Origin: Roseibacillus ishigakijimensis
GTDB taxonomy: Bacteria > Verrucomicrobiota > Verrucomicrobiia > Verrucomicrobiales > Akkermansiaceae
DNA: 64,000 bases
Direction: 5' to 3'
Assembly (NCBI RefSeq): GCF_016595415.1
Contig: NZ_JAENIO010000007.1
Coordinates: 1 to 64,000, forward strand
Position numbers and translations under genes: made by a program. The notes under the pieces were generated by a model. It ran no database searches, was not told where the DNA came from, and was given only the letters and a program-made list of their open reading frames with translations. This document shows, piece after piece, positions 18,581-46,474 of this stretch. Position 1 is the first letter of the stretch; each line of letters opens with the position of its first letter.

Positions 18581-21500
18581 GAAATTATAGTTTAAAATGT
18601 AACAATAGAATGAAATATCAGATTCTCAGGTTGAGGTGGATTTATGCGGGATTACTCATGGGGCTGTTGCCCAATGTTTGCGCGCAGTTGGTGCTCTTGG
18701 ACGCGACTTTCGATGGGGTAGAAAATGATCAGAATGCCAGTTTTCAGTTGATCGATAATGGCAGAGGCAATCCTGGTTGGAATCCGGAAACTGGCCTTAT
18801 TGATCGGGGAACTGTTACCAGTGCGACAGCGGGAATCGTCTCCCAGAGCACGATTGACTTCACCCAGCTTGTGGGAAAGAAGCTCTCTCTGAGGGTTGTT
18901 TTGGATGGGGCTTCGGGAGCAATCGCTTCCAATGGGGCCTTTATCGGTTTTCAAGAGGCTGAGGGAGGGGCTAATTCCGGGAGTCAGCTTTGGAATAATC
19001 GAGGGCCTTCTTTCGGTTTGGTCATTGATGGAGGCAAGTTGGGTCCTAGTCTAGGAGTGGGCGCGGGAGGCAACAATGGCGGCGGGGTCTCTCTGCTACC
19101 TTTCGAAGTGACAACTGGGGCTTCAATCAATGACGGATTTTCAATTGAAATCATACTCGATGAATTTGGTTTTCGTTTTCATCTCGAGGGCTTGGAAACT
19201 GTTTCAGGTGATCCCATCATCGGGGGGGAAGCCAGTTGGAATGAGACTGGTTTTGACTTCGACGACTTTGGAGCAGGGATGCGGGTGACGGTAACTTCTC
19301 AGAATGGTACTCAGAATTTTGGGGGTTTTGACCTTCAATCTATTTTGGTGTCGACTGATTCGCTGATTAAAACAGATCGTGATTCTGACCAATTAGATGA
19401 TCTTTGGGAAGAGCAGTATTTTGGGAATAATGATGGTGTTGCGAATGACGATGAACTCCTTTTGCAAGGCGGAGGCGATGATCCCGATTTGGATGGCTTG
19501 ACGAATGTGGAAGAGTTTCATCGGCGGACGATTCCTAATGATGACGATAGTGACGATGATGGCATCAACGACGGTGATGAAGTCAACGGAACTCTAAATC
19601 CTTGGGCCGGTGGCGTTTTAGGTTCACCCCCTGGAGACTCGACTAACCCACTTGTGGCTGACAGCGACGGAGACAGCAAAAGTGATGGTGAAGAAATAAT
19701 GGCTGGGACCGATCCCAATTCCATTTTGCCTGTCGTGGGTCCGTCGTTTCCTTTCGTGGATAGCGATGGTGATAGTTATCGAGATGAAGCGGAGATTGCT
19801 TTCGGAAGCAACCCGGAGGATGGGGAAAGTTTCCCTGACTTTTCTGGTGAAAAGGGGACTCCTAATGTTGTCATAATCTATGCTGATGATCTGGGTATCG
19901 GTGATGTTTCCGCATATGGTGAATTATTTGGAACTCCCAGCCCGGCCGAGACTCCTTACCTCGATCAGCTCGCCGCAGAAGGAGTTCTCTTTACTCAAGG
20001 GCATTCTTCTAACGGGATATGCACACCTAGCCGTTATGCCTTGCTTACTGGTCGTTACAATTGGCGGGAATTCAATGGAATCACCTTTCATTACGGTGGG
20101 ACTATGGGAGGCCAAGAAGTACCACGACCGGAAGATGTAACCTTGGCGGAGTATTTGAAGGGGCATAATTTCGATACGGCGGCTTTTGGAAAGTGGCACT
20201 TAGGAGGAGCATTTTACTCCCCATCCGGGGAAAGGATTTCTGGGAATCCTACAAATTCGCAGGATGTTGACTGGGCTCGGCCAGTCGAACACCACGCGGT
20301 GGCGAACGGTTTTGACTACTTTCGAGGCTTGGCGACGACGATTAATATGGGTCCGTATGTCTATCTTGAGGATGATCGGGTTCAGATTTGGGATGAGAAT
20401 TTGAACGCTGGTGCTGGCGGGTTTCGTAATGCAACAGCAACTGATTCCTTCACTTGGCTTACGACGGGAGAGTTGAACTCTTCCGTCGTCGGAGCAAAAG
20501 ATTCGCGGGCATCCCTTGGAGATCCTAGTTATCGACAAGTCGATGCCGAACCAATAATGATTGAGCAGGTCGAATCTTATTTTGCGGAAAGAGCCATGTC
20601 GAATGATCCTGATCCGTTTTTCGCCTATGTTTCCTTGTATTCACCTCACAAACCGTGGGCGTTAACTCAACCATTTGTTGGAGAGGATAGCAGTCGAGGT
20701 TTTCATTATGGGGATTGGATGCGAGAAGTAGACGCCCGGGTCGGGCGAGTAATCTCCGCGTTGGATAACAATGGTTTTAAGGAGAATACCTTGCTGATTT
20801 TTACGGCCGATAACGGTCCGGAAAACGATGCTGTTATACAAGCGATTGCATTCGGTAAGGACTCGAATTCCGCCTTGCGGGGCAATAAACGCGATGTTTG
20901 GGAAGGAGGGACTCGGGTGCCTTTCATAGTCCGTTGGCCCGGACAGGCAGCACCGGGACTCAGAGTTGACGATCTTGTCTGGCAGGGGGATATTTTTGCG
21001 ACTATCGCTGCTTTGCTTCAGGATGATATTGCGGATGGAATCGCGCCAGATGGCGAATCCTTTTTGAACATTTTGCGGGGTCAAAAGAAGCCGTCTGGAA
21101 GTCGTGAAGGAATAGTGATAGCGTCGGGACGGGGTGATTTGGCATTCAAATCGACTACAGGTTGGAAGTTTATCGATTCCTCGGGTGGTGGGAATAGCAA
21201 TTCCTGGGATTCACAGAACAATCAGATTCCCAATGCGGCGGGGACCAATCAAGGCTTTCCCAAGCAGTTTTTTCAGCTGAATCAGGATCTAGGAGAGGAT
21301 TTTAACTTGCTTCAAGGTCTGAATAGTGAGCGGGAAATTCGAACCCGAATTGCAGAACTCTCTGAAGTTGACTATTGGAGTATCCTTGATCAGTTGAGAA
21401 ACACGGAGTCTTCAAGATTCTTTCGGCGGAACCCCGATAATGATGGTGATGGTCTTCCCAATTCGATTGAAAAAGCGCACGGCCTTGAAATGGAGGATCC

Positions 21501-21828
21501 AAAAGACGCGAGCTATGATTTTGATGGAGATCAACAATCCAATTGGGTTGAGTATCTTTTTGGAAGTGATTTAGCTGATGGGAGTGATTTTTTTTCTTTG
21601 CATGGTCTGAAGGTTGCTGATGGTTTTGAAGTCCGTTGGCCAAGTCTTCTCGGGCGACACTACACTCTCTGGTTGTCACGAGAATTGAGTGAATGGAAAA
21701 TGATTTCCCAGTATCCGGGTAATGGAGGAGAGCTTTTGGTTAAACTCAGTCGAGAGCAGATTACGAATTTCGACAATCGCGGTGTAGATTCCCGTCTTTT
21801 TCTTCGAGTTGAAGTTTCTTTGAACTAG
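18577..21828 (+). CDS. Secreted sulfatase with N-terminal binding domain and thrombospondin type 3 repeats
   Basis: 1083 residues from the ATG at 18577, overlapping the previous stop (ATGA); an ATG at 18610 is an alternative and gives a shorter signal peptide. Domains: signal peptide to about residue 36; a domain paralogous to that of the upstream gene (about 38-260); type 3 repeats (about 266-420); a type I sulfatase (about 428-915) with metal ligands in 'VVIIYADDLGIGDVSAYG' and the formylglycine motif Cys482-Thr-Pro-Ser-Arg486; another type 3 repeat; and a C-terminal module with 'RWPSLLGRHYTLWLSRELSE', ending 'LFLRVEVSLN'. It needs a formylglycine-generating enzyme for activity. The likely substrate is a sulfated polysaccharide of marine origin (inference). 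Translational coupling suggests the upstream protein acts with it. Confidence 0.9.
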   Translation: MRNYSLKCNNRMKYQILRLRWIYAGLLMGLLPNVCAQLVLLDATFDGVENDQNASFQLIDNGRGNPGWNPETGLIDRGTVTSATAGIVSQSTIDFTQLVGKKLSLRVVLDGASGAIASNGAFIGFQEAEGGANSGSQLWNNRGPSFGLVIDGGKLGPSLGVGAGGNNGGGVSLLPFEVTTGASINDGFSIEIILDEFGFRFHLEGLETVSGDPIIGGEASWNETGFDFDDFGAGMRVTVTSQNGTQNFGGFDLQSILVSTDSLIKTDRDSDQLDDLWEEQYFGNNDGVANDDELLLQGGGDDPDLDGLTNVEEFHRRTIPNDDDSDDDGINDGDEVNGTLNPWAGGVLGSPPGDSTNPLVADSDGDSKSDGEEIMAGTDPNSILPVVGPSFPFVDSDGDSYRDEAEIAFGSNPEDGESFPDFSGEKGTPNVVIIYADDLGIGDVSAYGELFGTPSPAETPYLDQLAAEGVLFTQGHSSNGICTPSRYALLTGRYNWREFNGITFHYGGTMGGQEVPRPEDVTLAEYLKGHNFDTAAFGKWHLGGAFYSPSGERISGNPTNSQDVDWARPVEHHAVANGFDYFRGLATTINMGPYVYLEDDRVQIWDENLNAGAGGFRNATATDSFTWLTTGELNSSVVGAKDSRASLGDPSYRQVDAEPIMIEQVESYFAERAMSNDPDPFFAYVSLYSPHKPWALTQPFVGEDSSRGFHYGDWMREVDARVGRVISALDNNGFKENTLLIFTADNGPENDAVIQAIAFGKDSNSALRGNKRDVWEGGTRVPFIVRWPGQAAPGLRVDDLVWQGDIFATIAALLQDDIADGIAPDGESFLNILRGQKKPSGSREGIVIASGRGDLAFKSTTGWKFIDSSGGGNSNSWDSQNNQIPNAAGTNQGFPKQFFQLNQDLGEDFNLLQGLNSEREIRTRIAELSEVDYWSILDQLRNTESSRFFRRNPDNDGDGLPNSIEKAHGLEMEDPKDASYDFDGDQQSNWVEYLFGSDLADGSDFFSLHGLKVADGFEVRWPSLLGRHYTLWLSRELSEWKMISQYPGNGGELLVKLSREQITNFDNRGVDSRLFLRVEVSLN

Positions 21829-23890: not shown

Positions 23891-24853
23891 ATGTTCGAGC
23901 CTCCCTTGTTGAACCTGCGATTCTCTATTTCCTGCCTAGCCGCTTTTTCTTCCCTCACTGCATGGGGCGCGGGCGACAGCGCCTATTTGATAGATTCCAC
24001 TGGTTTGACCCGGATCACGGGGGTGGGGACCGCAAACCCGCAATCAAGCGTGATTCCGGGCGTTGCGGGCAAGGACATCGAGTTTAATGCGACCAGCCGC
24101 CAGTTTTATGTCCTGGCTGAAGCTCCGGCCGGGGGGCGCCTGCTCGAGACCTATGACAATCAGTTCAATTTGGTTTCTTCTTTTCCGCTGACGTTTTCCA
24201 GCGGGGGTGCTTTTGGCGCGGCCAGTTTTGCTTTGGACTCCGGCACTGGAAATCTCTATGCCACCGAGGGGGGCGTCAACGGAGGCACGGCGACTTCTTC
24301 TTACCTGGTCGATCCGGCGACGGGATTGGCCTCTCTGTATGAGACGGTGGCTGACCGCTCTCACCAAAGCCTCTTTGTTTTTGGGAATGAGATTTATTAC
24401 AACGACGAGAATTACATTTTCTCAGATGCGATTCGCCAAGGTGCGGGTGATCCTCCTCCGCTTCATCGCATTGGAGTTGGAAATATTGCCGAAGGGGCTG
24501 ATCCCGAGGAGACTTATCCCGCTCTCACCAGCGATGTGATTGGGTCGGCTCTGGTTGGGCCGGACGGCTTTCTCTGGGTCTCGGCCAATTATCAAGGCGA
24601 TAATTATTTGATTAAGTATGATTATACGGGAAATGAATTCTCTACTTTCCAGTTTATCATTGATGACCATGTCACGAATCATGGTCGCTTGGAAATCTAC
24701 GACACCAGCTATAACCATACGATCTTGCCTCTTGGCCCCGGGATGCCCGACGGATTTACCATCGCTGATTCCGCTTCGGTGCCTGAGCCCTCGAGCGTGT
24801 GGTTCTTTGGAGCTGGGTGTGCTTGCGCGTTCTTGCGGAGGCGAAGGGGGTGA
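23891..24853 (+). CDS. PEP-CTERM surface protein, beta-propeller-like
   Basis: 320 residues. N-terminal signal peptide ('FSISCLAAFSSLTAWGA', cleavage near 26). The body has loosely repeated strands such as 'FYVLAEAPAGGRLLETYDNQ', 'GFLWVSANYQGDNYLIKYDY' and 'HNHTILPLG'-like ends, suggesting a beta-propeller. The C-terminus is a textbook PEP-CTERM signal: VPEPSS, a hydrophobic helix (VWFFGAGCACAFL) and RRRRG. Such proteins are processed by an exosortase and sent to the cell surface or exopolysaccharide matrix; no exosortase gene is in this window. An alternative start at 23833 in another frame looks like a signal peptide (MIKRLIFKLIFFIK) but leads out of frame. Function unknown. Confidence 0.8.
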   Translation: MFEPPLLNLRFSISCLAAFSSLTAWGAGDSAYLIDSTGLTRITGVGTANPQSSVIPGVAGKDIEFNATSRQFYVLAEAPAGGRLLETYDNQFNLVSSFPLTFSSGGAFGAASFALDSGTGNLYATEGGVNGGTATSSYLVDPATGLASLYETVADRSHQSLFVFGNEIYYNDENYIFSDAIRQGAGDPPPLHRIGVGNIAEGADPEETYPALTSDVIGSALVGPDGFLWVSANYQGDNYLIKYDYTGNEFSTFQFIIDDHVTNHGRLEIYDTSYNHTILPLGPGMPDGFTIADSASVPEPSSVWFFGAGCACAFLRRRRG

Positions 24854-29088: not shown

Positions 29089-29856
29089 GTGATTGCTTCC
29101 CCCGCTCCAGCCAGTGCTCCCTCCCTGCCCGGAGGCTTCACCTTTCTGCGCGATATCTTTGCGACGGAGGAGCTCGCTGCAGCGCGGCGGGGACAGGAAG
29201 CTCTCATGGCGGGGGAGAACGACCGTCAGCCCCAGTTTGCCTGGCCCGCGCCCCGGGCGCGCAAGGCCCGCTCGTGGAAGCTGCCCTACGCGACCCACTT
29301 GCGCAGCGAGCTGGCGGGGCTGGCTCGATCCCCGCGCTTGCTGGAGGCGATCGCGGAGGCCTCCGGAGCACGCACGCTGCGCTTCTGGTTCGATCAACTC
29401 CTTTGGGAAGAGCCCGCCCGGCGACCGGGGAATGATTATCATTGGCATACCGAGCGCAGCCGCTGGAAGACCTGTCAGGCTCCCCTCATGGTCACCGCCT
29501 GGGTGCCTTTGGCAAAAATCGCGCCCGCGATGGGGCCCATCACGATGGCCCGGGGGACGGCGGAGCGGCGCTGGCTGGAATTCCCCGACGGCTGGGCCCC
29601 GGCAGCGGAGGACATCGTGCCCGCCTCCGTGCAGCCCGGCGAGGCCGCGCTCTTTTGCTGGCACACCGTCCATGGCAATCCCCCCAACCGGGCCACCGCT
29701 CCCCGCCGCGCCATCGCCCTGCACTACGCCGTGGATGAGCTGAGCTACCGTCGCCATGGCAAGTTCAGCCACCTCAACGAGCGCTGGGTGCGCCAGCGGG
29801 ATGGCCAGCCCGACTTTACCGACGAGCGCGTCTGTCCGCTGGTGTGGAGGGGGTAG
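29089..29856 (+). CDS. Phytanoyl-CoA dioxygenase (PhyH)-like Fe(II)/2-oxoglutarate oxygenase
   Basis: 255 residues with a GTG start at 29089 preceded by AAGGGA at a suitable distance. The fold is recognisable as PhyH: an N-terminal 'GGFTFLRDIFATEELAAAR', the first metal site 'GNDYHWHTERSRWKT' (His120 and Glu122 in place of the usual His-x-Asp), 'PLMVTAWVPLAKIAPAMGP', and the distal site 'LFCWHTVHGNPPNRA' (His195) with the co-substrate Arg downstream. Members hydroxylate varied small molecules; the substrate is unknown. The HxE variant of the metal triad should be noted when judging activity. Its 3' end overlaps the convergent beta-helix gene by 41 bases. Confidence 0.75.
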   Translation: MIASPAPASAPSLPGGFTFLRDIFATEELAAARRGQEALMAGENDRQPQFAWPAPRARKARSWKLPYATHLRSELAGLARSPRLLEAIAEASGARTLRFWFDQLLWEEPARRPGNDYHWHTERSRWKTCQAPLMVTAWVPLAKIAPAMGPITMARGTAERRWLEFPDGWAPAAEDIVPASVQPGEAALFCWHTVHGNPPNRATAPRRAIALHYAVDELSYRRHGKFSHLNERWVRQRDGQPDFTDERVCPLVWRG

Positions 29857-32059
29857 AGGGTCGCCGCCGCCGCAGGAGGGGAAGGCTGGCGAGCAGGGTG
29901 AGCAGGCCGGTGGCCGGTTCCGGCACGGTGGTGAACTGTAAAAGGCTGCCGGTCTGGGAAAAGACGCCCGCGAAGGAGGCGTCCGGCGCGGTGTATTGAT
30001 AATCGGCGGGGTCGATGGTTGAGCTGCCGAAATGGATGAGGTCGTAGGTCCGGCCCGCGACCCAACCATTGTCCTGAAAGTCGAAGGTCACGACCGAGCC
30101 ATCGCTGGCAAGGGCGCCGGTGACGGTGATGAGATCGCTGGTGGCGGGATTGAGGCCGAGCTCGAACTGGATGCGGCTGTTGTCCGCCAAAGTCAGGCTC
30201 TGAGCGGTAAGATGGCCGGGCGAACTCCCGGGAGCCAGAGTGGAGTTTTCCAAATTGAGGGCGGCGAAGGTTCCGCTGCCGCCGATGGTGGTTCCGCGAT
30301 AGGCGTTGGCCGTTCCGGTGAGGCTACCTTCCAAATAGAGGCCACCCTGCCCCACATTCAGGGTGGAAAGGTCGTTGTCGCCATGGAGGGTGAGGCTTCC
30401 ATTCCTAGTCTTCAGCAGAGTGCCTCCGCCGGAGAATCCGGCAAAGTTGGGAGCGGTGCTGATGGCGTTGCCCATGATGTCGATACTGGCCCAATCCGAG
30501 ATGACGATTTCTCCCGCCTTGAAGTTCTCGAAGAGATTTTGCACCGGATAGTCGATGTCGAGTTCCGCTCCGGTGTCGAAGTGGATGCGCGAGTCGGAGT
30601 CGGGGTGGGTGGTGATGGTCCAGGCGTGAAGATCACTGGAGGGGCCGATATTGACCACCCCGGTCGAGCCCGCCTGGCTGCCGATTTGCAGATGGTGGGC
30701 GATGAGGTTGCCCCGGTTGATGAGGTTGACCGTCCCGCTGCCGGAGACGCCTACCAGGGTGTTTCCCGCGGTGTTGTTGAAGACCCCTTCGCTGACGTTC
30801 AGAATTCCGACCGCATTCTCCTCCACGCCGAGGCGGACCTCCCGCCCGTGCGCGGCGGAGCCGAGGAGAACCTGGGAATTGTCGTTGAGGGAGAGGCTGC
30901 CGGTGCCGGCCCGGCCGATGTCGAGGCGATTGGTGCTTCCTCCGGTGATGACGATGCGGCTGTTGTCATGCAGCTCGATGGAGCCCTGGGAGCCGGCGCT
31001 GGCCCCGAGGGTCAGGAAACGGGTGGTGAGCTGGGCGTCTTGCTCCAGGCCAAGGGTGTTCTCTGCTGCGGTGGCATAGCCGAAAGTGAATTCGTTCGAG
31101 TTGGTCCACTGGGAGGTGCCGCGCAAAGTGGCGGAGCCGGAGGAGGAGCCGAAGGTGCCCAGAAAGGTGTTGTAGCTATTCAGCTCGCCCCCCGACATCG
31201 TCAGCGTTCCGGTGCCGCTCCCACTCCGGCCCAGGGAAAATGTATCTTCAATCGTGAGAGTTCCGCCGGTCTGGAGGTTGAGAGACCCGGAGCTTCCGTC
31301 AGCCAGGCCCATGAAGAGGTGGCGGCTCTCAACGGTTCCCCCCGCAAGGTTCAGGGTGCCTTGGGAGCTCTGGCCCAGAGAGATGAGTCCGCTACTGAGC
31401 CAGGAGCCTCCGCTGATATTGAGGATGCCCGTGCTGCCGGATTCTGCGGCGACGACAGAGTTCCCCGTCGTGGAAAGGGTGGCACTCTCCGTCAGATTGA
31501 CGGTTCCGCTTCCCGCTCGTCCTACCACGAATCCCTCGCCGGTGCTATTGACTTGGAAGCGGGCCGTTCCTCCGAGCGTGAGCTTGCCGGTGGCTCCGCC
31601 GAAGTAGCCGAGGACGGAGCTGTCGGTGGTGACCTCACTGTTGTTCGAGAGCGTGAGATCTCCCTCCCCGCCCCGGCCAATGAGAATGTCCAGATCGTTG
31701 TTCCAGGTGCCGTGAAAGAGCTGCGCGGAGCCGGAATCTCCTCCGTTGTAACCCAAGTGGGAGAAGCGGGTCTGCAGGGTGGGAGTGGAAGCCGGGACCC
31801 CGTCCTCTCCGAGGTGGATGGAGCCCGAACCGTCGCGCCCGACGAGCAGGCCATTGGCATTTGCCGCGTCGCGAATCCAGGAGGTCCCGCCGTTTCCCAG
31901 CCTGACCTCAGTCGAGTTGTCTGGCACGTCGTCCGACCAATGGGAGGCCTCGTGCCAGAGCCCGTCACCGTTGAGAGTCCAGTGGTTCTGGGCGGCCAAG
32001 GGCAAAATGGTGAGGAGTGGGAGGGAGGTGGCCAAGCGCGGCAAATGGAGGTTCGTCAT
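29816..32059 (-). CDS. Large beta-helix PEP-CTERM protein with autotransporter-type strand repeats
   Basis: 747 residues from the ATG at 32059. Signal peptide (MTNLHLPRLATSLPLLTILPLAAQ). Nearly the whole body consists of short Gly/Ser/Asn-rich strand repeats of the kind annotated as autotransporter-associated beta-strand repeats, for example 'GSGTVNLTESATLSTTGNS', 'GSTGILNISGGSWLSSG' and 'SQGTLNLAGGTVESRHLF', which predict a long parallel beta-helix. The C-terminus holds a PEP-CTERM signal (VPEPATGLLTLLASLPLLRRRR) but then continues for 14 more polar residues, unusual for this signal. Likely a surface adhesin or matrix protein. A long opposite-strand frame over the same region is a GC-driven shadow. 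Confidence 0.85.
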   Translation of the reverse strand: MTNLHLPRLATSLPLLTILPLAAQNHWTLNGDGLWHEASHWSDDVPDNSTEVRLGNGGTSWIRDAANANGLLVGRDGSGSIHLGEDGVPASTPTLQTRFSHLGYNGGDSGSAQLFHGTWNNDLDILIGRGGEGDLTLSNNSEVTTDSSVLGYFGGATGKLTLGGTARFQVNSTGEGFVVGRAGSGTVNLTESATLSTTGNSVVAAESGSTGILNISGGSWLSSGLISLGQSSQGTLNLAGGTVESRHLFMGLADGSSGSLNLQTGGTLTIEDTFSLGRSGSGTGTLTMSGGELNSYNTFLGTFGSSSGSATLRGTSQWTNSNEFTFGYATAAENTLGLEQDAQLTTRFLTLGASAGSQGSIELHDNSRIVITGGSTNRLDIGRAGTGSLSLNDNSQVLLGSAAHGREVRLGVEENAVGILNVSEGVFNNTAGNTLVGVSGSGTVNLINRGNLIAHHLQIGSQAGSTGVVNIGPSSDLHAWTITTHPDSDSRIHFDTGAELDIDYPVQNLFENFKAGEIVISDWASIDIMGNAISTAPNFAGFSGGGTLLKTRNGSLTLHGDNDLSTLNVGQGGLYLEGSLTGTANAYRGTTIGGSGTFAALNLENSTLAPGSSPGHLTAQSLTLADNSRIQFELGLNPATSDLITVTGALASDGSVVTFDFQDNGWVAGRTYDLIHFGSSTIDPADYQYTAPDASFAGVFSQTGSLLQFTTVPEPATGLLTLLASLPLLRRRRPSTPSTPADRRARR

Positions 32060-32340
32060 CGGTGTGGATCGTTTGGGCAAGCGTAAGCATGAGAGATGAT
32101 GAAACGGCAATTCACCTAAAGAGTGGTGTTCGTATGACAGAGGGAGAGGGTTCGTCGAAGCGAGGATTCAGTAAGGAGGCCGACCTCGGGTGAGAGAAGC
32201 TGAGGATCTCTGGATGGATGGCAGGCGCGCTGAGTTTTAGTGCGATGGTGGTTTTCTTTGTGGTCTTTCCCGGGGTGAGATGTTGAGGCTTTTCCTGTCG
32301 ATGAGGAGTTGGCAGGAGAGGCGGATTTAGGGCTGGAGAT

Positions 32341-36963: not shown

Positions 36964-37602
36964 CTAGATGAGGCCCTTGCGGATGGCGGCGGCCACGGCG
37001 GCGGCGACGTTGGGCACCTGGAGCTTACGGTAAATATTTTCGGTGTGCTGGGCCACGGTGCGGTAACTGATGTGTAATTGCTCCGCGATTTCCTTCTTGA
37101 GGTATCCCAGGGAGAGCAAGCGGAGGATCTCCTCTTCACGCTGGCTGAGGAGACGATCTCCCCCCGGTCGTCCCCGCCCGGTGAGAGCTTGCAAGACGAT
37201 GCGGGAAAGCTGGGGATCGATGAGACAAGCCCCTTGTTGAATCTCGAAGAGAGCTTCCCGGATGGAAGCGATGGGGGTGTCCTTGAGGAGATAGCCGGAG
37301 ACGCCAAGCCGGATGGCTTCCAGGGTGGTGCGATGGTCGGCGTTTTGGGTCAGGACGAGGATATTTCCCTTGGGGTGTTGCTTGAGAAGAGGGGGGATGA
37401 GCTGGAGACCGTCGCGATCGGGGAGGTGGAGATCGAGGAGGGTGAGGTCGGCGCCGGGAGGGGGAGTGGTGGTGAGGTAGTCCTCGGCACAGGAGAAGGA
37501 GGCCGCGAGGGTGAGACCCTCGGTGAGGCGGACCATGTGCTGCAGGGAGGAGCGGTAGCGGGCGTTGTCCTCGATGATCTGGACGCGAATGGCTGGAGGC
37601 AT
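36964..37602 (-). CDS. NarL/LuxR-family response regulator
   Basis: 212 residues: receiver domain (about 5-120) with the acidic pair in 'VQIIEDNARYR', phosphoacceptor Asp57 in 'TLLDLHLPDRDG' and Lys in 'GYLLKDTPIASI'; then a LuxR-type helix-turn-helix (about 150-212) with 'LSQREEEILRLLSLGYLKKE' and 'HISYRTVAQHTENIYRKLQV'. Binds DNA as a phosphorylated dimer. It lies seven bases after the stop of the HisKA_3-type kinase on the same strand and is surely its partner. A likely target is the divergent sulfatase locus, because a 7-4-7 inverted repeat lies in that intergenic region (inference). Confidence 0.92.
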   Translation of the reverse strand: MPPAIRVQIIEDNARYRSSLQHMVRLTEGLTLAASFSCAEDYLTTTPPPGADLTLLDLHLPDRDGLQLIPPLLKQHPKGNILVLTQNADHRTTLEAIRLGVSGYLLKDTPIASIREALFEIQQGACLIDPQLSRIVLQALTGRGRPGGDRLLSQREEEILRLLSLGYLKKEIAEQLHISYRTVAQHTENIYRKLQVPNVAAAVAAAIRKGLI

Positions 37603-37609
37603 GGGGAAG

Positions 37610-39565
37610 CTATTTCAGGATGAGATGGAGGTGGAAGCCGTCACCGGGGGCGGTGGTGACGGTGAGGGTGCCGCCCAGGCGCTTGGCGCGGATTTCGAGA
37701 TGGCGGGGCGGGCGGCTGTCCGCCGGAGCTCCACGTCCGTTGTCGGAGATGTGGAGGTGGAGGTGTCCCTGGTGGCGCTTGATGGCGACCGAAGCTCGGG
37801 TGGCGCGGGCATGCTTGCGGATGTTGTTGAGGCTTTCTTTAATGAAGAGGAAGAGATCCCACTGGCGGGCGGGGGGGAGGCGGGAGAGGCGGGCCTGGGG
37901 GGCGATTTCGCAGTAGTGATCCAGCCCGGTGAGTAGGCGGCTGCAGAGCAGGGCGATTTGTTTGCGGAGATTGAAAGCCGGGCTGTTGGTCTCGAGCAAG
38001 CCCACGAAGTCACGGGTTTCCGCCGAGGTGAGGCGGGCCGTTTCGAGGGCCTCCGCGAGCAGCACCTTCTGGTTCGGCGTGGGTGTGGGCAGGGATTCGG
38101 CGAGGAGCTCGGTGAGGTGGACGAGGCCGCTGGCATTGGCTCCGATTTCATCATGCAAGTCGCAGGCGATGCGGTCGCGCACCCGTTTCCACTTGCGATC
38201 GGCGAGGAGCTTGGCAAAGGCGAGGAGAAGGGGAAGAAGGATGAGCAGCAGGATGAGAGCATCGCGGAAGAGCTCCTGCCGTTGCTCCCGGCGGAGGTGG
38301 AGTATCTGGCGCAGGTTGGCCAAGCGGCGTTCTTTGGCTGCTCGTGTGGCCAGCCCTTCGATCCACTGGCGGAGGGGGAGGATTTTTCCTTCCGTACTCA
38401 AGCCGTCGGTCAGCCGCTGGAGGTGGGGATGGGGGCGACCCGCATTGCTGGTAATGGCAAGGGAGGACGTCTCCTCGCCGCTGACCACCTGCCCCTGGGA
38501 GAGGAGTTGGACCTCACTCAGAATGATGCGGGGTGGTCGTTGGATGCGGAACTCGGGCACGGGATCGAGGAGGGTGAGGCGGAAATAGCGTCCCGCTACC
38601 GAGGGGAAGCGCTGCAGGTGCGGGCTGGAACCCGGGGCGGTGAGCGGGGTCGCGGTGCGTAGCACGGTCTCTCCCTTGCGGTCGCCGGGCGCGTGCAGGC
38701 GCTCGAGCCGGAAGCGGGAGGGAAAACCGACTCCGCTGGCCTGGGGGAAGTTGAATTGCAGGGAATGAACTGCGGGCCAGAGTCGGATTTCGTCCAATGT
38801 GCGGGAGCGGCCGAGGTCGAAGAGCAGTTCGAGGCGGGAACCATTGAAGTAAAAATCCAGAAAAGGATGGCGCAGTTGCCCGTCCACGGGGGAGAAGAGG
38901 CAGAAGCCGTCGGTGAGATAGCGCCGGCTCCAGATTGAGCCGTAGTCCTTGTCGGTGGAAGCCTCCACGCGGGCACCGAGGGCGGCATTCCATGGACCGG
39001 CGAAGGCCAGGATCTCGCTCAAGGCGGTGACGTATTCTCCGTCCCACCAGGAGGGGTCGTCGCCCATGCGGGTGCAGCTCAGGCGCAGGCGATCGGCGAA
39101 GACCGGTTGGGCGAGGGGGAAGAGCTGGGGCTCGATCCCGGTTACCGCATAGTCCTCATCCCGGTAATCAACGACCGTCTGGTAGTCTTTCCCAGGAGCA
39201 GCGAGCTCGATGTGAAAGCGCTTGGGAAAGCCGAGAGGGGTGACTTCCAGCGAGTCTGGCGAATAGGTGGCTGGCACGAAGGCGAGGAGGTCGAGGTCCG
39301 CCGGGCGGGCGAATGAGAGTTCGATGGTGACCCGGTCGTGCTCGTCGTGGGAGAAATGGGACCGGTAGCCAAGGGTATGCGGGCTGGGATTCAGCCGGAT
39401 GCGGGGAAGAGGTGCGATCTCCTGCTCGAGGCGCGCGATGTCGTGTTCGAGGGACTGGAGGTCGTCGGGGCGCTGGCATGAGGCCGCGCAGCCCAGGAGC
39501 AGGAGCGCGACGAGGGCTCCCGGCCAGCGGAAGGGGCCGGAGACGGAGCTGGCAGGGCGGAGCAC
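37610..39565 (-). CDS. HisKA_3-type sensor histidine kinase with discoidin-like periplasmic sensor
   Basis: 651 residues with a GTG start at 39565. The N-terminus has a signal/lipobox-like segment (VALLLLGCAASCQ, Cys26). About 400 periplasmic residues contain at least two segments with F5/8 type C (discoidin) character: 'RSRTLDEIRLWPAVHSLQF', 'AGRYFRLTLLDPVPEFRIQ' and 'RIILSEVQLLSQG'. One membrane helix (about 436-456) leads to a HisKA_3 domain with His471 in 'IACDLHDEIGANASGLVHL' and a short HATPase ('LFLFIKESLNNIRKHARATR', 'HISDNGRGAP'). The discoidin-like folds suggest it senses glycans. Operon with the NarL-type regulator; divergent from the 1429-residue sulfatase. Confidence 0.85.
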   Translation of the reverse strand: MLRPASSVSGPFRWPGALVALLLLGCAASCQRPDDLQSLEHDIARLEQEIAPLPRIRLNPSPHTLGYRSHFSHDEHDRVTIELSFARPADLDLLAFVPATYSPDSLEVTPLGFPKRFHIELAAPGKDYQTVVDYRDEDYAVTGIEPQLFPLAQPVFADRLRLSCTRMGDDPSWWDGEYVTALSEILAFAGPWNAALGARVEASTDKDYGSIWSRRYLTDGFCLFSPVDGQLRHPFLDFYFNGSRLELLFDLGRSRTLDEIRLWPAVHSLQFNFPQASGVGFPSRFRLERLHAPGDRKGETVLRTATPLTAPGSSPHLQRFPSVAGRYFRLTLLDPVPEFRIQRPPRIILSEVQLLSQGQVVSGEETSSLAITSNAGRPHPHLQRLTDGLSTEGKILPLRQWIEGLATRAAKERRLANLRQILHLRREQRQELFRDALILLLILLPLLLAFAKLLADRKWKRVRDRIACDLHDEIGANASGLVHLTELLAESLPTPTPNQKVLLAEALETARLTSAETRDFVGLLETNSPAFNLRKQIALLCSRLLTGLDHYCEIAPQARLSRLPPARQWDLFLFIKESLNNIRKHARATRASVAIKRHQGHLHLHISDNGRGAPADSRPPRHLEIRAKRLGGTLTVTTAPGDGFHLHLILK

Positions 39566-39735: not shown

Positions 39736-42700
39736 ATGAAAATAGCGTTCCTCTCCAGCCTGCTCGGCTTGGCCTTGCTCTGCCCTTTCGCAACGGGGGC
39801 TCCCAACATCGTCTTCATCCTGATGGATGACTTCGGATACAATGATGTCGGAGCCCAGACTTATCCCGCGCCGCCGAATCAATATCCCCATTCCGGGCCC
39901 ACTCCAGTTCCCCTCGCAAATTCGGGTCCCATTCCGGAGCCTAACGTGGCCTTTGGGTTGACGCCGCGCATCGATTCCCTGGCGGCGGATGGAATGCGTC
40001 TCACGCAGTTTTACTCCTCGCCGGCTTGCTCGCCCTCGCGGGCCAGCTTCATGACGGGACGCTATGATCGGCGCATTTCCACCAATAAGGTCTTCTTTTC
40101 CAATCATGGTGACGGCTTGAACACCTCGGAAGTGACGGTGCCGGAGGTGTTGCGGGAGACTGGTTACCTCACTGCGATGGTGGGGAAGTGGCACCTGGGC
40201 TACAACCCGGGAAGGCACAACCCTTTTCAAATGGGTCCCTTGCGCCACGGCTTTCATCACTTTCTCGGCTTTCCCCACAGCAACGACATTGCCAATCACG
40301 ACCTGATTCGCGACGAGGAGGTGCTGATTCGGGACTTCAGCTCGCCCAGCCAGCAGGCGGAGATCACCTGGCGTTACACCGAGGCGGCTCTTGAATACAT
40401 CGAGGATTTCTCGGCGCAGGAGAAGCCCTTCTTTCTTTATCTCGCCCACACCATGACGCACCAGCCTTGCTGGCCGTCGGACCGTGAGTTCACCAATGCC
40501 GATGGCAGCACTTGGCCGGTCTTTCTCGGCTCCAGCGGGGTGAGTAATTACTACGATGTCGTGGCTGAGGTGGATCACAGTGTGGGTCGGATCCTCGACA
40601 AGCTGACGGCGCTGGGGCTGGAGGAGGAGACGATTGTGATCTTCGCCTCGGACAATGGCCCTTGGTTGCGGCTCTCCAATCGCAATCTCACCGATCGCTC
40701 GGTGGGGTCGGCCTATCCCTTGCGAGGAAACAAGGCCCAGACTTGGGAGGGGGGCTGCCGGGTTCCCTTCTTCGTGCGCTGGCCGGGTGTGATTCCTGCG
40801 GGCTCGGTGCGGGACGACACCACGGGCTTGATTGATCTCTTGCCCACCTTCACGGCCTTGGCCGGGGGGGATTTGCCCTCCGACCGGACCATTGACGGGG
40901 TCGACCTTTCCGCCCTCTGGCGGGGTGAGGGGGGAGCCGAGCGGCAGAGCTACGCTCTTTTCAATACTTCCAATGATGGTTTGGGTTCGCTCAGCGCGAT
41001 CATCAAGGACGACTGGAAGTTGCGGGACGGCAAGCTCTACAACCTGGCGGAAGACATCCAGGAGTCCGTCGACCTCGCGAGCTCGCAGCGCCGTCAGTTG
41101 GCCGAGATGGAAAGGGAAATGACGGCGGTGAGTGATTCCATTGCGGCCGAGTCCGCTCCGCGCGGCGAGTTCACGAGTTACGAAGTTCTTCTTTCCGCCA
41201 ACGAGCTGGAGGTGCCCGAAGGGGGGGAAGCCTCTCTGGAGGTGAGCCTTTCGGCGGACCCGGGAAAGGCCGTGCTCGTGACCACTGCCCCCTTCAGTGG
41301 AGACGGCGACTTGAGCGTGGCCGCCGGGGGCGTGTTGACCTTTGACAGCACGAATTGGGCGCTGCCCCGGACCGTCACTCTGGCGGCGGCGGTCGATGAG
41401 GACGACGAAGGCTCCGGGGCCACCTTCCGGGTGACCACGGATGACATCGCGCCGGTGCGGGAGGTCTTTGTTTTCGAAAAAGATGCCGAAGCGGTCGACC
41501 CGGTGGAGCTTTCCCTCCTTTGGCCGAAGGCGAGCCCGGTTTGCCTAGCCGGAACGACGACAGGTCTTGTTGCCGAGGGTGCTGCGCAAGTCGGGGAGGG
41601 TCTCGATCCTGCGGGCACGAGCTATCAGTGGAGCCAGATTTCCGGTCCGGCGGCGGCCAGTTTCACCCACGTCACTGAGGCGCGCACGGGAGTGCGTTTT
41701 CCCGTCGAAGGCCCCTACCGTCTGCGGCTGACCGCGAGCCATCCCGAGGCGGGAGGGGCGGCAGCAGTGGATTTCCGGGTTGAGGTGGGAGAATGGCGGG
41801 AGGAGGAAGAAGGGGTTTCCTATAAATTTGCTCCCCTCTTCGCCCACAACGCCTCGAGCGACGAGGATGGCAACGCGGTCTGGGAAGAGGCCGTGGGTCC
41901 CGGGGGGCGCGAATGGAGCCTGGCGGAGAGTGTGACCCGCAGCAGTGGGGACCCGGCACCGGATCTCGCCTTCATCGAGGCCGCCTACCAGTTCCCGGGC
42001 GGGACGAACCGACCGGCAGGCGGGCTTTCCAATCATCTTGATGCCTTCAGCCAGGACGACGCCAGTATCGAGCTCTGGTTCCGTCCGCAGAGTCTGCCGG
42101 TGGCCGTTCCCCAGGTGCTCTGGGAATCGGGTGGAGAGGTGGGAGCCTCTTTTGTTTTGGAGGGAAACTCCTTCAAATTCGCGGTGGACAACCAATCGAC
42201 CGGGGCCGTGGCGGAGGGGGTCCTCGCTCCGGCTGCCGAACGCAATGGCTACCTCCACGCCGTGGGCGTCATTGACCTCGCCGGGGATGAGATCCGGCTC
42301 TATCTCGACGGGGTGCTGGTCTCCAGCCAGGCCATCCCGGCGGTGGAGGATTGGTGTGGCACGAGCGACTCGGGTCTGGGCACCATTGCCCATTCCTCGC
42401 AGGGGGAAACCACCGACCGCACTCATTTGGGGGCCTATCTTTTACAACCGGCCGGGGTGGAACTCTTTGCAGGCGAGGTGGCTCACTTTGCCTTCTACGG
42501 ACGGACCCTCGCGGGGGACGAGATCGAGGAGCTTCTCTCTGGTCCAGTGGGAGAAGAAGTAGTGACTGGGATTTCGGGGGACTTCAAGCGGGAGCCGGAG
42601 CTGGCTTACGATGCCGCGCAGGATGGGGGAGAAGACCTCGTGTGGGAGAATGAGCAACCTCCCGGTGGTCGGGACTGGACCTTGGCAGAGAGCGTCATCC

Positions 42701-44025
42701 TCTCCTCCGCCGATCCGGCCCCGCAGCTGGACTTTATCGAAAAAGCCTTTCAGTTCAGTGGGTCCACCACCTTGCCCAGCGGGGCGGTGTCCACCCACCT
42801 CGATGCCTATAGCACGGGTGATGCGAGCATTGAGCTCTGGTTCCAACCCGCGAGCCTGCCGGTGGCCACGCCGCAGGTGCTCTGGGAGGCAGGGGGGGCG
42901 ATTGGAGCCGCGCTGATCTTGGAGGAAAATCTCTTGAAGTTCGCGGTGGCCGATAATTCCCAGGGAGCAGTGGCCGAGGCCGTGCTCGCTCCCGCAGCCA
43001 GCCAGGATGGATTCGTGCATGTGGTCGCGGTCATCGACCTCCCGGGGGATGAGGTCCGGCTTTACCTCGATGGCAGCTTGATGGATAGCGAGGCTCTCCC
43101 CGCCGCGCTTGGCGATTGGTGCGGGACGAGTCACACCGGGCTGGGAACGCTGGCTCATTCCAATGGCGCGGAGACCGCGAACATCACCCACCTGGGCGGT
43201 TACCAGCTTCTTCCTGGTGGGGTGCGGCCCTTTGCGGGGCAGATTGCCTATTGCCTTTTCTACGATGAAGCCCTTACTGCCGAGGATGTCGCCGCTTTGG
43301 CTACGGGGCCCCGCGAGATGAGTCCGGGCGAAGCCGCCAAGAATCTGGCACCCTTGGTTTTCGCCGGAGCGGCTCCGGACGCGAGGCAGGGCGAGGAAGC
43401 GGCCTTGCGGGGGGAAGCGAGCGATGATGGCCTTCCCGAGGGGAGCACTCTCGCCACCCAATGGCGCTTTCTTTCGGGGCCTGCGCCGGTCGTGTGGCAT
43501 GATTCCTCTCTCCCGGACAGTGGAGTGACCTTTGAACTGGAAGGCAATTACGTGCTTTGGCTGGAGGCCGATGACGGGGTGGTGCGGGTTTATGATGAGC
43601 TGGCTCTCAGTGTGACCGGGCTGGGCTATCAAGCGTGGATCGAGGGCTATTCCCTCTCGGAAAACGGCCGGGACTTCACTGCGGATCCCGATGGGGATGG
43701 GCTCCCCAATGGACTGGAAGCCTTGTTCGGTACTGATCCAACCCAAAAAACTCCCGGCCTGGCGCTGCAAGCGACCGAGGGTCTGGTGACGGTCCTGACC
43801 CACCCCCGCCTACCGGGGGGCGCGGTCGATGTCTCCGGCACCTGGATGTGGTCCCCTGATTTGCAAAATTGGTATTTGGCCGATGGCCAGGCGGGACAGG
43901 AAGAAGTTGGCGCCACACTGGTGGTTAGCTCGACGTTGGAGGCGGCAGAGGAAAGGGCGGAGATGACTGCCAGCGGGGAATTGAAACAGTTGTTCCTGCG
44001 CCTGGTGGCAGTGCTGGAGCCCTGA
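39736..44025 (+). CDS. Very large secreted sulfatase with tandem LamG-like domains
   Basis: 1429 residues from the ATG at 39736 (MKIAFLSSLLGLALLCPFAT, signal peptide); the frame is open further upstream without protein character. Sulfatase domain about 22-470: metal Asp31-Asp32 in 'NIVFILMDDFGYNDVG', formylglycine site Cys98-Ser-Pro-Ser-Arg102, 'AMVGKWHLGYNPGRH', 'VIFASDNGPW'. Next come an immunoglobulin-like region (about 475-560), a PKD-like region (about 590-690), two near-identical LamG/concanavalin-like domains (about 694-948 and 949-1195), another PKD-like region, one thrombospondin type 3 repeat ('DPDGDGLPNGLEALFGTDP') and a C-terminal module ending 'LFLRLVAVLEP'. Probably acts on sulfated polysaccharide at the cell surface. 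Followed by two secreted paralogues on the same strand. Confidence 0.9.
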   Translation: MKIAFLSSLLGLALLCPFATGAPNIVFILMDDFGYNDVGAQTYPAPPNQYPHSGPTPVPLANSGPIPEPNVAFGLTPRIDSLAADGMRLTQFYSSPACSPSRASFMTGRYDRRISTNKVFFSNHGDGLNTSEVTVPEVLRETGYLTAMVGKWHLGYNPGRHNPFQMGPLRHGFHHFLGFPHSNDIANHDLIRDEEVLIRDFSSPSQQAEITWRYTEAALEYIEDFSAQEKPFFLYLAHTMTHQPCWPSDREFTNADGSTWPVFLGSSGVSNYYDVVAEVDHSVGRILDKLTALGLEEETIVIFASDNGPWLRLSNRNLTDRSVGSAYPLRGNKAQTWEGGCRVPFFVRWPGVIPAGSVRDDTTGLIDLLPTFTALAGGDLPSDRTIDGVDLSALWRGEGGAERQSYALFNTSNDGLGSLSAIIKDDWKLRDGKLYNLAEDIQESVDLASSQRRQLAEMEREMTAVSDSIAAESAPRGEFTSYEVLLSANELEVPEGGEASLEVSLSADPGKAVLVTTAPFSGDGDLSVAAGGVLTFDSTNWALPRTVTLAAAVDEDDEGSGATFRVTTDDIAPVREVFVFEKDAEAVDPVELSLLWPKASPVCLAGTTTGLVAEGAAQVGEGLDPAGTSYQWSQISGPAAASFTHVTEARTGVRFPVEGPYRLRLTASHPEAGGAAAVDFRVEVGEWREEEEGVSYKFAPLFAHNASSDEDGNAVWEEAVGPGGREWSLAESVTRSSGDPAPDLAFIEAAYQFPGGTNRPAGGLSNHLDAFSQDDASIELWFRPQSLPVAVPQVLWESGGEVGASFVLEGNSFKFAVDNQSTGAVAEGVLAPAAERNGYLHAVGVIDLAGDEIRLYLDGVLVSSQAIPAVEDWCGTSDSGLGTIAHSSQGETTDRTHLGAYLLQPAGVELFAGEVAHFAFYGRTLAGDEIEELLSGPVGEEVVTGISGDFKREPELAYDAAQDGGEDLVWENEQPPGGRDWTLAESVILSSADPAPQLDFIEKAFQFSGSTTLPSGAVSTHLDAYSTGDASIELWFQPASLPVATPQVLWEAGGAIGAALILEENLLKFAVADNSQGAVAEAVLAPAASQDGFVHVVAVIDLPGDEVRLYLDGSLMDSEALPAALGDWCGTSHTGLGTLAHSNGAETANITHLGGYQLLPGGVRPFAGQIAYCLFYDEALTAEDVAALATGPREMSPGEAAKNLAPLVFAGAAPDARQGEEAALRGEASDDGLPEGSTLATQWRFLSGPAPVVWHDSSLPDSGVTFELEGNYVLWLEADDGVVRVYDELALSVTGLGYQAWIEGYSLSENGRDFTADPDGDGLPNGLEALFGTDPTQKTPGLALQATEGLVTVLTHPRLPGGAVDVSGTWMWSPDLQNWYLADGQAGQEEVGATLVVSSTLEAAEERAEMTASGELKQLFLRLVAVLEP
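41818..42582 (+). repeat. First copy of a tandem LamG-like domain within the sulfatase
   Basis: Codes for about 255 residues beginning 'KFAPLFAHNASSDEDG' and containing 'GGREWSLAESVTRSSGDPAP', 'SIELWFRPQSLPVAVPQVLW' and 'RTHLGAYLLQPAGVELFAGE'. The adjacent copy repeats each of these with small changes, which shows an internal duplication. Confidence 0.85.
42583..43320 (+). repeat. Second copy of the tandem LamG-like domain
   Basis: About 246 residues with 'GGRDWTLAESVILSSADPAP', 'SIELWFQPASLPVATPQVLW' and 'ITHLGGYQLLPGGVRPFAGQ', matching the first copy position by position. Boundaries are approximate. Confidence 0.85.
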
Positions 44026-44052: not shown

Positions 44053-45561
44053 ATGAAAAAAATAAGGCACGGAAAAGCAATCATCGGGGGAGCGGCCGGT
44101 ATCTTGACCTCACTCTCGCTCTCTGCGGTGGAGATCGACATTGACGGGCGTCTGGCGAACTCGGAGGAAGAAAGTGCTCTGGAATGGGGAGACAACTCCG
44201 GACGGGGGGATTCGGGCACGGTCAATAGCGTCCCGGTGGGCACCAACCGACCCGACCCGGTCTCCGACGACGACGGCACTGTGACCCTGACCGTCACCGC
44301 CAATATTCAAGATTGGCGCGTGCATTACTCCGCAGGGGAATACGATGCCGGAGAAGAGTGGAACGTGCGGAGCTCTCACAATGGGCTCGATGCCGAGGCC
44401 GCCCTGGCCAACGAGGCCTACTTCTCCATCACCTTGGATACAACTGCCAACGGTTTCGATCTCATTGACTGGGAATCGGTGAGCGTCAGCTTGTGGCGCA
44501 ATGGCAGCGGGGCGGATCCCACCTTCCAGCTCGCGGTCGATGCCAATGACGATGGTTTCGATGTCGGGGATCTGGTGGGAAGCCCCACCACCTTGGAGCC
44601 CGGCCTCGCCGGAGCCAGCACCCTGAGCTTGGGCCGTGACGATTTGCCCAAAGGGGTGATGACGGCGGAGGTGCGCCTCTACCACTGGGGCAATGGCAGC
44701 CCGTCGGGAAACATGCACCTGTATGACGTCGTCGCCGGGTATGAGGTGGCTGCTGGCTCGGGTCTCGAACTCACCCTCTCACAGGAGGAGGACGGGCTGG
44801 AGTTCACTTGGCCGAGTCTGGCCGGCTTCCAGTATGATTTGCGAAGCAGCACCGACTTGACCGCCGATCCGGCGACATGGCCCCTCTATGACGATGGCGA
44901 AAAGGTCTATGAAGACATCGTTGCGAGCGAAACGGGAACGCACGTGCTCTCCGGAGTCCGGCAAGTGGGTGCGCAACGATTCTTCGTCCTTGTTCGAGAG
45001 CCCGTGCCTCCGCTCTTTGCCGCCGACTTCGAGAGCGACAACGGCAACTTCACTGTCTCCACCCGGGAGGGCTCGGACTGGGAGTATGGGACCCCCGATA
45101 CCGATTCCGCAGGGGGCCGGATAACGACCGGAGCCAATGGCTCGTCCGCTTGTTGGGGCACCGTGTTAGGCAGCGCCTCCGGGGATCCGGAAAGTGGCGA
45201 GGCGGCGGTGAAAGGCTTTTACCTTCCCCAGACGGAGACCACCCTTTCCACCCCCGTGATTGACCTGACCGCCGTGACCACCCCGGTCAGCCTGAGCTAT
45301 CAGGAAGCCCTCGACCTCGCTGAGGGCGCGACTGCGGGGGTCTTTGTCGTGGACCACGCCACCGGAGAGGCCCTTGGAGAAGCCCTCGCTACCGCCAGTG
45401 ATGGGGATTCCAGTGAAGCGCCCTGGACTGCGGTCAACGACCTCCCTCTTCCCGCCGAGGCCCTTGGGAAGGCCATTCGTATCGAGTTCCGTTTCCAGGC
45501 CGGATCGGAGGCCGATTACGCGGGCTGGTATCTCGACGAGATTCGGCTCGAGGCCCGATAA
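44053..45561 (+). CDS. Secreted protein: shared N-domain plus non-PEP C-terminal modules
   Basis: 502 residues. Signal peptide (MKKIRHGKAIIGGAAGILTS, cleavage near Ser24-Ala25). Residues about 26-235 form a domain that is also the whole body of the next gene: 'VEIDIDGRLANSEEESALEW', 'TVTANIQDWRVHYSAGEYDA', 'WESVSVSLWRNGSGADPTFQ', 'GNMHLYDVVAGYEV'. Here it is followed by a short module ('LEFTWPSLAGFQYDLRSSTD', about 240-330) related to the C-terminus of the sulfatase at 18577-21828, and by a third domain (about 335-502, 'FESDNGNFTVSTREGSDWEY', ending 'AGWYLDEIRLEAR') of MAM/choice-of-anchor type. No PEP-CTERM. Probably an accessory binding protein for the sulfatase upstream, 27 bases away. Confidence 0.8.
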   Translation: MKKIRHGKAIIGGAAGILTSLSLSAVEIDIDGRLANSEEESALEWGDNSGRGDSGTVNSVPVGTNRPDPVSDDDGTVTLTVTANIQDWRVHYSAGEYDAGEEWNVRSSHNGLDAEAALANEAYFSITLDTTANGFDLIDWESVSVSLWRNGSGADPTFQLAVDANDDGFDVGDLVGSPTTLEPGLAGASTLSLGRDDLPKGVMTAEVRLYHWGNGSPSGNMHLYDVVAGYEVAAGSGLELTLSQEEDGLEFTWPSLAGFQYDLRSSTDLTADPATWPLYDDGEKVYEDIVASETGTHVLSGVRQVGAQRFFVLVREPVPPLFAADFESDNGNFTVSTREGSDWEYGTPDTDSAGGRITTGANGSSACWGTVLGSASGDPESGEAAVKGFYLPQTETTLSTPVIDLTAVTTPVSLSYQEALDLAEGATAGVFVVDHATGEALGEALATASDGDSSEAPWTAVNDLPLPAEALGKAIRIEFRFQAGSEADYAGWYLDEIRLEAR

Positions 45562-45609
45562 ACTCCCTTGGCCCCCTTTTTCCTCAAAAAGAAAAAAACA
45601 AAAGACTCC

Positions 45610-46365
45610 ATGAAAAAGACAATGACAATGAAAGGCTCGCTGGCGCTGGGATGCGCTCTGGCGACGGGTGCCCACGCAGCGGTCATCGACATCGATGGCC
45701 GGCTGGCTGACTCAAACGAAGCCAGTGACCTGGAGTGGGGTGACAATTCCGGGCGGTCGGATTCTGGTGGCTCCACCCCCATCGGGAGCAACAGACCAGC
45801 GCCTGTGGTGGATAGCGACGGCACGGTGAATTTGACCGTGGCGGCCAATATCCAGGATTGGCGCACTCCGACTTCTTCAGACCCCTATGAAGCTGGCGAG
45901 GAATGGAATGTGCGTAGCTCCAGCAATGCCACCACCGCGCAAGGAGCCTTCACTAACAACGCCTTCTTCTCCATCACTCTCGACTCCACCGCCCTCGGAG
46001 GCTCCCTCTTCGACTGGGATTCGGTGAGCGTCAGCCTCTGGCGAAATGGCACCGGGGCGGACACCGACTTCCAGCTTGCCATCGACGCCGACGGCAATGG
46101 CTTCACCGTTGACGACCTGGTCGGCACGGTGAGCAATCCCGGCGCGGGAATCGGCGGGGCGACGACCATCTCTTTCGCGGGTGGGGAGCTTCCCCAGGGC
46201 GTCACCACCGGGGAGGTGCGCCTCTACACCTGGGGACAAGGGAGTATCTCGGGAAATATCCACCTCTATGATGTCGTGGCGGAATACACCGTCGTGCCCG
46301 AGCCTTCCAGTGCCCTTCTCTTCGGCTTGGGCGGTCTCTTCCTGGTGTGGAGGAAAAGAGGATAA
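45610..46365 (+). CDS. PEP-CTERM protein paralogous to the preceding gene
   Basis: 251 residues from the ATG at 45610 (MKKTMTMKGSLALGCALATG). After the signal peptide the body repeats the N-domain of the preceding gene with high similarity: 'VIDIDGRLADSNEASDLEWG', 'VAANIQDWRTPTSSDPYEAG', 'WDSVSVSLWRNGTGADTDFQ', 'GNIHLYDVVAEYTV'. It then ends in a PEP-CTERM signal, VPEPSSALLFGLGGLFLVW followed by RKRG. So the same domain is presented through exosortase-type sorting here, but through other modules in the neighbour. The strong intrinsic terminator 24 bases after the stop closes the sulfatase group. Confidence 0.88.
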   Translation: MKKTMTMKGSLALGCALATGAHAAVIDIDGRLADSNEASDLEWGDNSGRSDSGGSTPIGSNRPAPVVDSDGTVNLTVAANIQDWRTPTSSDPYEAGEEWNVRSSSNATTAQGAFTNNAFFSITLDSTALGGSLFDWDSVSVSLWRNGTGADTDFQLAIDADGNGFTVDDLVGTVSNPGAGIGGATTISFAGGELPQGVTTGEVRLYTWGQGSISGNIHLYDVVAEYTVVPEPSSALLFGLGGLFLVWRKRG

Positions 46366-46388
46366 GGGCTCCCTCCTTTGAAAAACAG

Positions 46389-46424
46389 GCGGAAGACTCG
46401 AATAAGGGTCTTCCGCTTTTTTTT
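46389..46424 (+). terminator. Intrinsic terminator after the PEP-CTERM gene
   Basis: gcggaagac pairs perfectly with gtcttccgc around a 10-base loop and is followed at once by eight T. It begins 24 bases after the stop at 46365 and is the clearest terminator in the window. Confidence 0.93.
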
Positions 46425-46474
46425 GACTCATCCTGAGGAGGCACTGACGGATTGCGGGTGGTGACGGCCTGGCC

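Follow-up and report, generated by a model that had tools for sequence, protein, structure and literature searches.

Adjacent paralogues of a sulfatase-associated secreted domain carry different C-terminal modules in a Verrucomicrobiota gene cluster

Why would a bacterium encode the same secreted domain in two neighboring genes and equip each copy with a different C-terminal end? This question is raised by two open reading frames (ORFs) in a 64-kb stretch of DNA (here termed the window), which is part of a genome of 4.1 Mb in 192 contigs. We found both ORFs where an earlier note on this DNA had placed them; they are referred to by their start positions, 44053 and 45610, and the domain that they share is termed the N-domain. 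Their features are as follows.

44053 to 45561, plus strand: protein with N-domain, WPSL module, and MAM/choice-of-anchor-J-like (caJ) domain, without PEP-CTERM (ORF, family searches, hydropathy)
44128 to 44751, plus strand: N-domain copy 1, sulfatase associated and beta-rich (sequence comparison)
44764 to 45000, plus strand: WPSL module of ~79 residues (profile A6, 94.1 bits; this copy is one of the seeds of the profile)
45013 to 45558 (start approximate), plus strand: MAM-like or choice-of-anchor-J-like C-terminal domain (relatives in class genomes)
45610 to 46365, plus strand: protein with N-domain and PEP-CTERM tail (ORF, family searches)
45679 to 46284, plus strand: N-domain copy 2 (sequence comparison)
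46294 to 46362, plus strand: PEP-CTERM tail, a predicted exosortase signal (PF07589, 28.4 bits; TIGR02595, 26.9 bits)

The mature N-domains are 60 to 64% identical across ~205 residues (E = 1.4e-80 in a within-genome search), a likeness far above chance, and both proteins have a signal peptide-like start. The earlier note had described a paralogous secreted domain in adjacent genes, quoting matching blocks, and had considered that the two domains might prove unrelated; the blocks are present, and the domains are clearly related.

The C-terminal ends are different. Protein 45610 ends in VPEPSSALLFGLGGLFLVWRKRG and scores above both curated PEP-CTERM cut-offs (20.7 bits for PF07589 and 16 bits for TIGR02595). 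PEP-CTERM is known to pair with the EpsH exosortase, and PEP-CTERM systems are associated with exopolysaccharide (Haft 2006, PMC1569441); in Akkermansia, PEP-CTERM proteins were detected by mass spectrometry, and their location was left unsettled (PMC4960237). Because the genome holds one exosortase gene (PF09721, 107.6 bits, at C181:97862) and 47 PEP-CTERM tails over the cut-off (50 in total at E up to 0.01), we take the PEP-CTERM scheme of 45610 as a working candidate and predict cleavage by the exosortase. At the C terminus of 44053, Pfam and NCBIfam searches returned neither PEP-CTERM nor any other family match, and its last 60 residues lack a hydrophobic segment (highest mean hydropathy over 17 residues, 0.51 versus 1.28 for 45610). 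A cryptic exosortase signal, which according to the earlier note would have spoken against two separate schemes, was searched for in this tail by hydropathy and family search and was not found, and no leftover PEP-CTERM was seen in the 48 bp ahead of 45610. The WPSL module and the MAM-like domain were located in place of the tail, as had been claimed. Two more genes of the window, 29819-32110 and 23891-24850, have PEP-CTERM-like ends; in 29819-32110, extra residues lie beyond the basic cluster.

What is the nature of the modules that take the place of the tail in 44053? (i) Both are positionally C-terminal. The analyzed genome has 17 WPSL modules, of which 14 are protein-terminal, 2 are followed by a terminal caJ, and 1 is internal (L105), with a nominal probability for this terminal placement of 3e-23 under uniform placement. 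Strict matches were found in 64 of 236 class genomes; at the loci read outside the analyzed genome (n = 29), the module was terminal in 23, followed by a terminal caJ in 5, and internal in 1 (L148). WPSL is hence C-terminal, directly or through caJ, in 16/17 cases in the analyzed genome and in 28/29 elsewhere, counts that lean slightly, since some profile seeds are among the matches (15 of the 17 own-genome matches are nonseeds). (ii) Relatives of the caJ domain of 44053 were found in 10 of 286 class genomes. Among 19 inspected, 17 end 4 to 7 residues past a common motif, 2 are internal (L082 and L083), and none carries PEP-CTERM; most have a WPSL-type module directly ahead. These data support WPSL+caJ as a recurrent C-terminal module rather than a random extension. 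(iii) WPSL members gave no convincing match in Pfam, NCBIfam, or PDB sequences, and no description of the module was found in the literature searched. The carriers are diverse secreted-type proteins (lectin, Ig, FG-GAP, kelch, and vanadium-peroxidase-like). (iv) The caJ copy of 44053 does not match NF038128 (threshold of 30 bits) and gives a subthreshold match to PF20773 (E = 0.03), its homologue L079 (45% identical) passes NF038128 with 32.5 bits, and the relative L082 has PF20773/MAM matches. The predicted model of full-length 44053 has a pLDDT of 35.6. Two large secreted-type proteins in the window also have WPSL-like ends, namely, 18577-21825 (profile match) and 16364-18577 (weak profile match).

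One way to read this pattern is that WPSL, alone or with caJ, acts as an unnamed C-terminal sorting or docking domain, widespread in Verrucomicrobiota and parallel to the exosortase, so that the gene cluster would route the same domain through both. We put this forward as a tentative idea that is rather doubtful; WPSL could also be a terminal beta-domain of an ordinary kind. An exosortase is encoded in all 17 genomes checked, and independence of WPSL from the exosortase is thus not demonstrable through its absence. MAM-type domains are usually adhesive, and WPSL and caJ could be two extra ligand-binding or adhesion domains, which would make 44053 a simply secreted multidomain binder next to a 45610 retained at the surface by the exosortase. 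This alternative, which we hold plausible without favoring it, agrees with the MAM-type matches of L082, with the size of WPSL, which is that of a small beta-domain, with the diversity of its carriers, and with the internal copies named above; the almost invariable C-terminal position, with no PEP-CTERM following, nevertheless exceeds the expectation for a freely placed binding domain. Protein 44053 could be simply secreted or could bind through its own modules. Taken together, the earlier proposal of one domain with two C-terminal schemes stands, whereas the part that makes the second scheme a sorting route to another location is something we infer.

Tabulation of the C-terminal modules attached to N-domains, which the earlier note had proposed, showed PEP-CTERM to be the most common: it is found on 45610, in genomes G490, G179, and G445, and on the copies of G686. 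The tail of 45610 passes the profile, that of G490 is subthreshold (16.1 bits), that of G179 has no Pfam match, and those of G179, G445, and G686 were read from sequence. Other ends are WPSL+caJ in 44053, a long protein of 1,002 residues in G537, and the sulfatase itself in G176. In a tree of the N-domains, the copies of the window pair as sisters (90/91) inside a group formed with Pontiellaceae (99/98), and G176 and G179 lie on long branches. In the simplest history of these few sequences, PEP-CTERM is likely the older tail and was replaced in 44053, G537, and G176. Within the window pair, 44053 has the longer branch (0.51 versus 0.27), and a second WPSL+caJ cassette, at C33:66354-66887 of the same genome on a frame of 885 residues (L089), is a possible donor of its tail. 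Both points would fit a decaying or drifting paralogue whose tail came by chance, through recombination, from a different gene for a secreted protein and has no selected role. Such a history seems very unlikely to us: the ORF is intact, with a signal peptide-like start, a full N-domain, and a complete WPSL+caJ, and many proteins of related genomes retain this cassette.

The partner with which both copies appear to work is indicated by the genes around them.

36964 to 37602, minus strand: response regulator of the LuxR/NarL type, encoded divergently to the sulfatase operon (PF00072, 62.9 bits; PF00196, 58.7 bits)
37610 to 39565, minus strand: histidine kinase whose large N-terminal region is a putative sensor, encoded divergently to the sulfatase (HisKA_3, HATPase_c)
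39736 to 44025, plus strand: large secreted sulfatase with signal peptide-like start, PF00884, PKD, two LamG, TSP3, and a formylglycine-type motif, CSPSR (family searches; relatives in G176, G179, G490, and G537)
46387 to 46425, plus strand: hairpin of 13 pairs with a T run, resembling a terminator, at the end of the three-gene unit (promoter/terminator scan)

As noted earlier, a large sulfatase adjoins the gene pair: it matches PF00884 above the cut-off (189.9 bits), has its C-x-P-x-R motif at residue 99 of the frame read, and ends 27 bp upstream of 44053 on the same strand. This gap, together with the 48 bp between 44053 and 45610 and the hairpin after 45610, makes a three-gene unit likely, and the gene layout suggests a single transcript. 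The hairpin, the sole addition from the promoter/terminator scan, has the longest stem of the 8 sites found, of which 6.4, mostly weak, are expected by chance. The kinase and the regulator flank the sulfatase divergently in the window and in G537, and in G176 one gene intervenes; in G176 and G537, the homologues of the regulator (50 to 55% identical, in the same place) and of the kinase (43 to 47% identical, divergently placed near the sulfatase) are conserved, which suggests regulated expression of the sulfatase unit. The C terminus of the sulfatase was suspected to be a WPSL module, but the WPSL profile did not detect one there. The formylglycine motif reads CSPSR in the window, G179, and G176, CTPAR in G233, and CSSAR in two Pontiellaceae sulfatases (L064:4351-7947 and L065:8701-12213).

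The N-domain is rare, with matches in 5 of 384 class genomes and 7 of 388 phylum genomes. Strong matches (over 230 bits) occur in five genomes of two classes, and in each of these the domain is either encoded next to a sulfatase of the same type or forms part of it. The N-domain gene is the next one downstream of the sulfatase in G537 (Pontiellaceae bacterium B12227; L042/L064) and G490 and the next one upstream in G179. In G176, which belongs to the genus of the window, the N-domain forms the N-terminal part of the sulfatase protein and follows its only signal peptide-like start, a Rosetta-stone link between the two. The sulfatase of G179 contains two more N-domain-like segments in its interior (residues 836 to 951, weak, and 1046 to 1159, E = 8e-8). 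The sulfatases of the linked genomes are 49 to 79% identical over the main alignments. The accessory part of the sulfatase was found in 6 of 388 genomes, 5 of which have the N-domain; the nominal hypergeometric probability of 8e-11 ignores kinship, and the sampled genomes are not independent (G537 and G490 are of the same genus). The sixth, G233, has the most distant sulfatase (41 to 44% identity) and no N-domain. Matches in G273, G253, G547, and G656 belong, as distant members, to a broader domain family and were left out of the linkage count. The N-domain is a partner of this particular sulfatase, and this conserved association, which includes a fusion and makes the link stronger than was claimed earlier, is the firm part of our account. 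A third match in the analyzed genome (C104, E = 2e-4) was rejected as a different domain whose likeness lies mostly in its PEP-CTERM end. The G537 sulfatase (L064:4351-7947) has, between its signal peptide and PPNIVLIFMDD, the residues AVIDIDG, which match the N-domain start AVIDIDGRLA and may be what remains of a former fusion or of recombination at the 5' end with the neighboring gene. G686 (L068 to L072) encodes five PEP-CTERM paralogues of the N-domain family, four at 100 to 147 bits and a remote fifth (L072, 25.6 bits); two are transcribed divergently from genes for LacI-type regulators.

The N-domain matches no family in Pfam or NCBIfam and no PDB sequence significantly. Its AF2 model is a beta-sandwich (pLDDT of 66; only one of five models was good), for which Foldseek and VIA-align listed mainly jelly rolls of CBM4, 22, 35, 6, 32, and similar families; Z scores of 7 to 8.5 are near background for such models, and CBM families outside the fold listing could also apply. 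The best VIA-align match was a carbohydrate-binding domain (Z of 8.5, root mean square deviation [rmsd] of 3.7 over 125 residues). On this moderate-confidence model, a CBM-like domain with probable sugar binding serves as our working hypothesis. The conserved partnership with the sulfatase, the fusion in G176, and the association of PEP-CTERM systems with exopolysaccharide (PMC1569441) would also suit a docking or scaffold domain that does not bind carbohydrate and holds the sulfatase to the surface or exopolysaccharide, a role that is compatible with both accounts of the tails. We consider this role rather unlikely, as the G176 fusion needs no docking to the enzyme and the fold matches are mostly CBMs, though these are not decisive.

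We return to the reading of the locus as a sulfated-polysaccharide unit whose partner domain exists in two forms with distinct delivery, to which we give an even chance. Downstream of a secreted sulfatase, its dedicated partner domain would be encoded twice, each time in a secreted protein, and enzyme and partner would act jointly on an extracellular sulfated polysaccharide, in cis in G176 and in trans here. The 45610 form would be trimmed and sorted by the exosortase and retained at the cell surface or exopolysaccharide. With its tail swapped for the WPSL+caJ cassette, 44053 would be delivered or docked independently of the exosortase, and the pair would serve to retain substrate or enzyme at two sites or in two modes.

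The role of exosortase tails in Verrucomicrobiota has been little tested, and paralogues that differ mainly in their tail, beside an enzyme partner, offer a built-in control for it; a single gene cluster could serve to compare two delivery modes of the same domain. The locus also draws attention to WPSL, a common C-terminal module unnamed in the family libraries searched, and to a conserved sulfatase partner, potentially a novel family of carbohydrate-binding domains for sulfated glycans.

A number of known systems resemble parts of this locus. (i) As in the PEP-CTERM/EpsH system (PMC1569441), 45610 has a signal peptide-like start, a PEP motif, a hydrophobic stretch, and a basic end, and the genome holds an exosortase and many tails; the difference is that 44053, the neighbor with the same domain, has no such tail. 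(ii) The C-terminal end of 44053 can be set beside choice-of-anchor J and InhA-like MAM domains (NF038128, PF20773), as one member of its homologue set, L079, passes NF038128; the copy in 44053 is itself below the threshold, and the protein stops there without a subsequent anchor. (iii) Like the type IX secretion C-terminal domains of Bacteroidota, WPSL is common to the ends of many unrelated secreted proteins, but no T9SS sorting-domain model matched 44053 (NCBIfam) or the WPSL members. (iv) As in CBM-bearing sulfatases and CAZymes, an enzyme acting on polysaccharides has a beta-rich domain either joined to it or encoded next to it; the N-domain differs in having no sequence-family match and in occurring mostly in trans, with a sorting tail. 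(v) Alternative sorting tails within a protein family have been described before, for example, GlyGly-CTERM/LPXTG/PEP-CTERM (PMC3237569), and such families, as well as the NCBI "choice-of-anchor" domains, share with our pair a homologous body with differing C-terminal delivery elements. The published cases considered compare homologues from different genomes and involve tails of the motif-TM-basic type; here the two forms are neighbors within a single gene cluster, and what replaces the tail in 44053 has the size of a domain and lacks a TM segment. The new elements are this side-by-side pairing, the nontripartite alternative, and the conserved partnership with the sulfatase.
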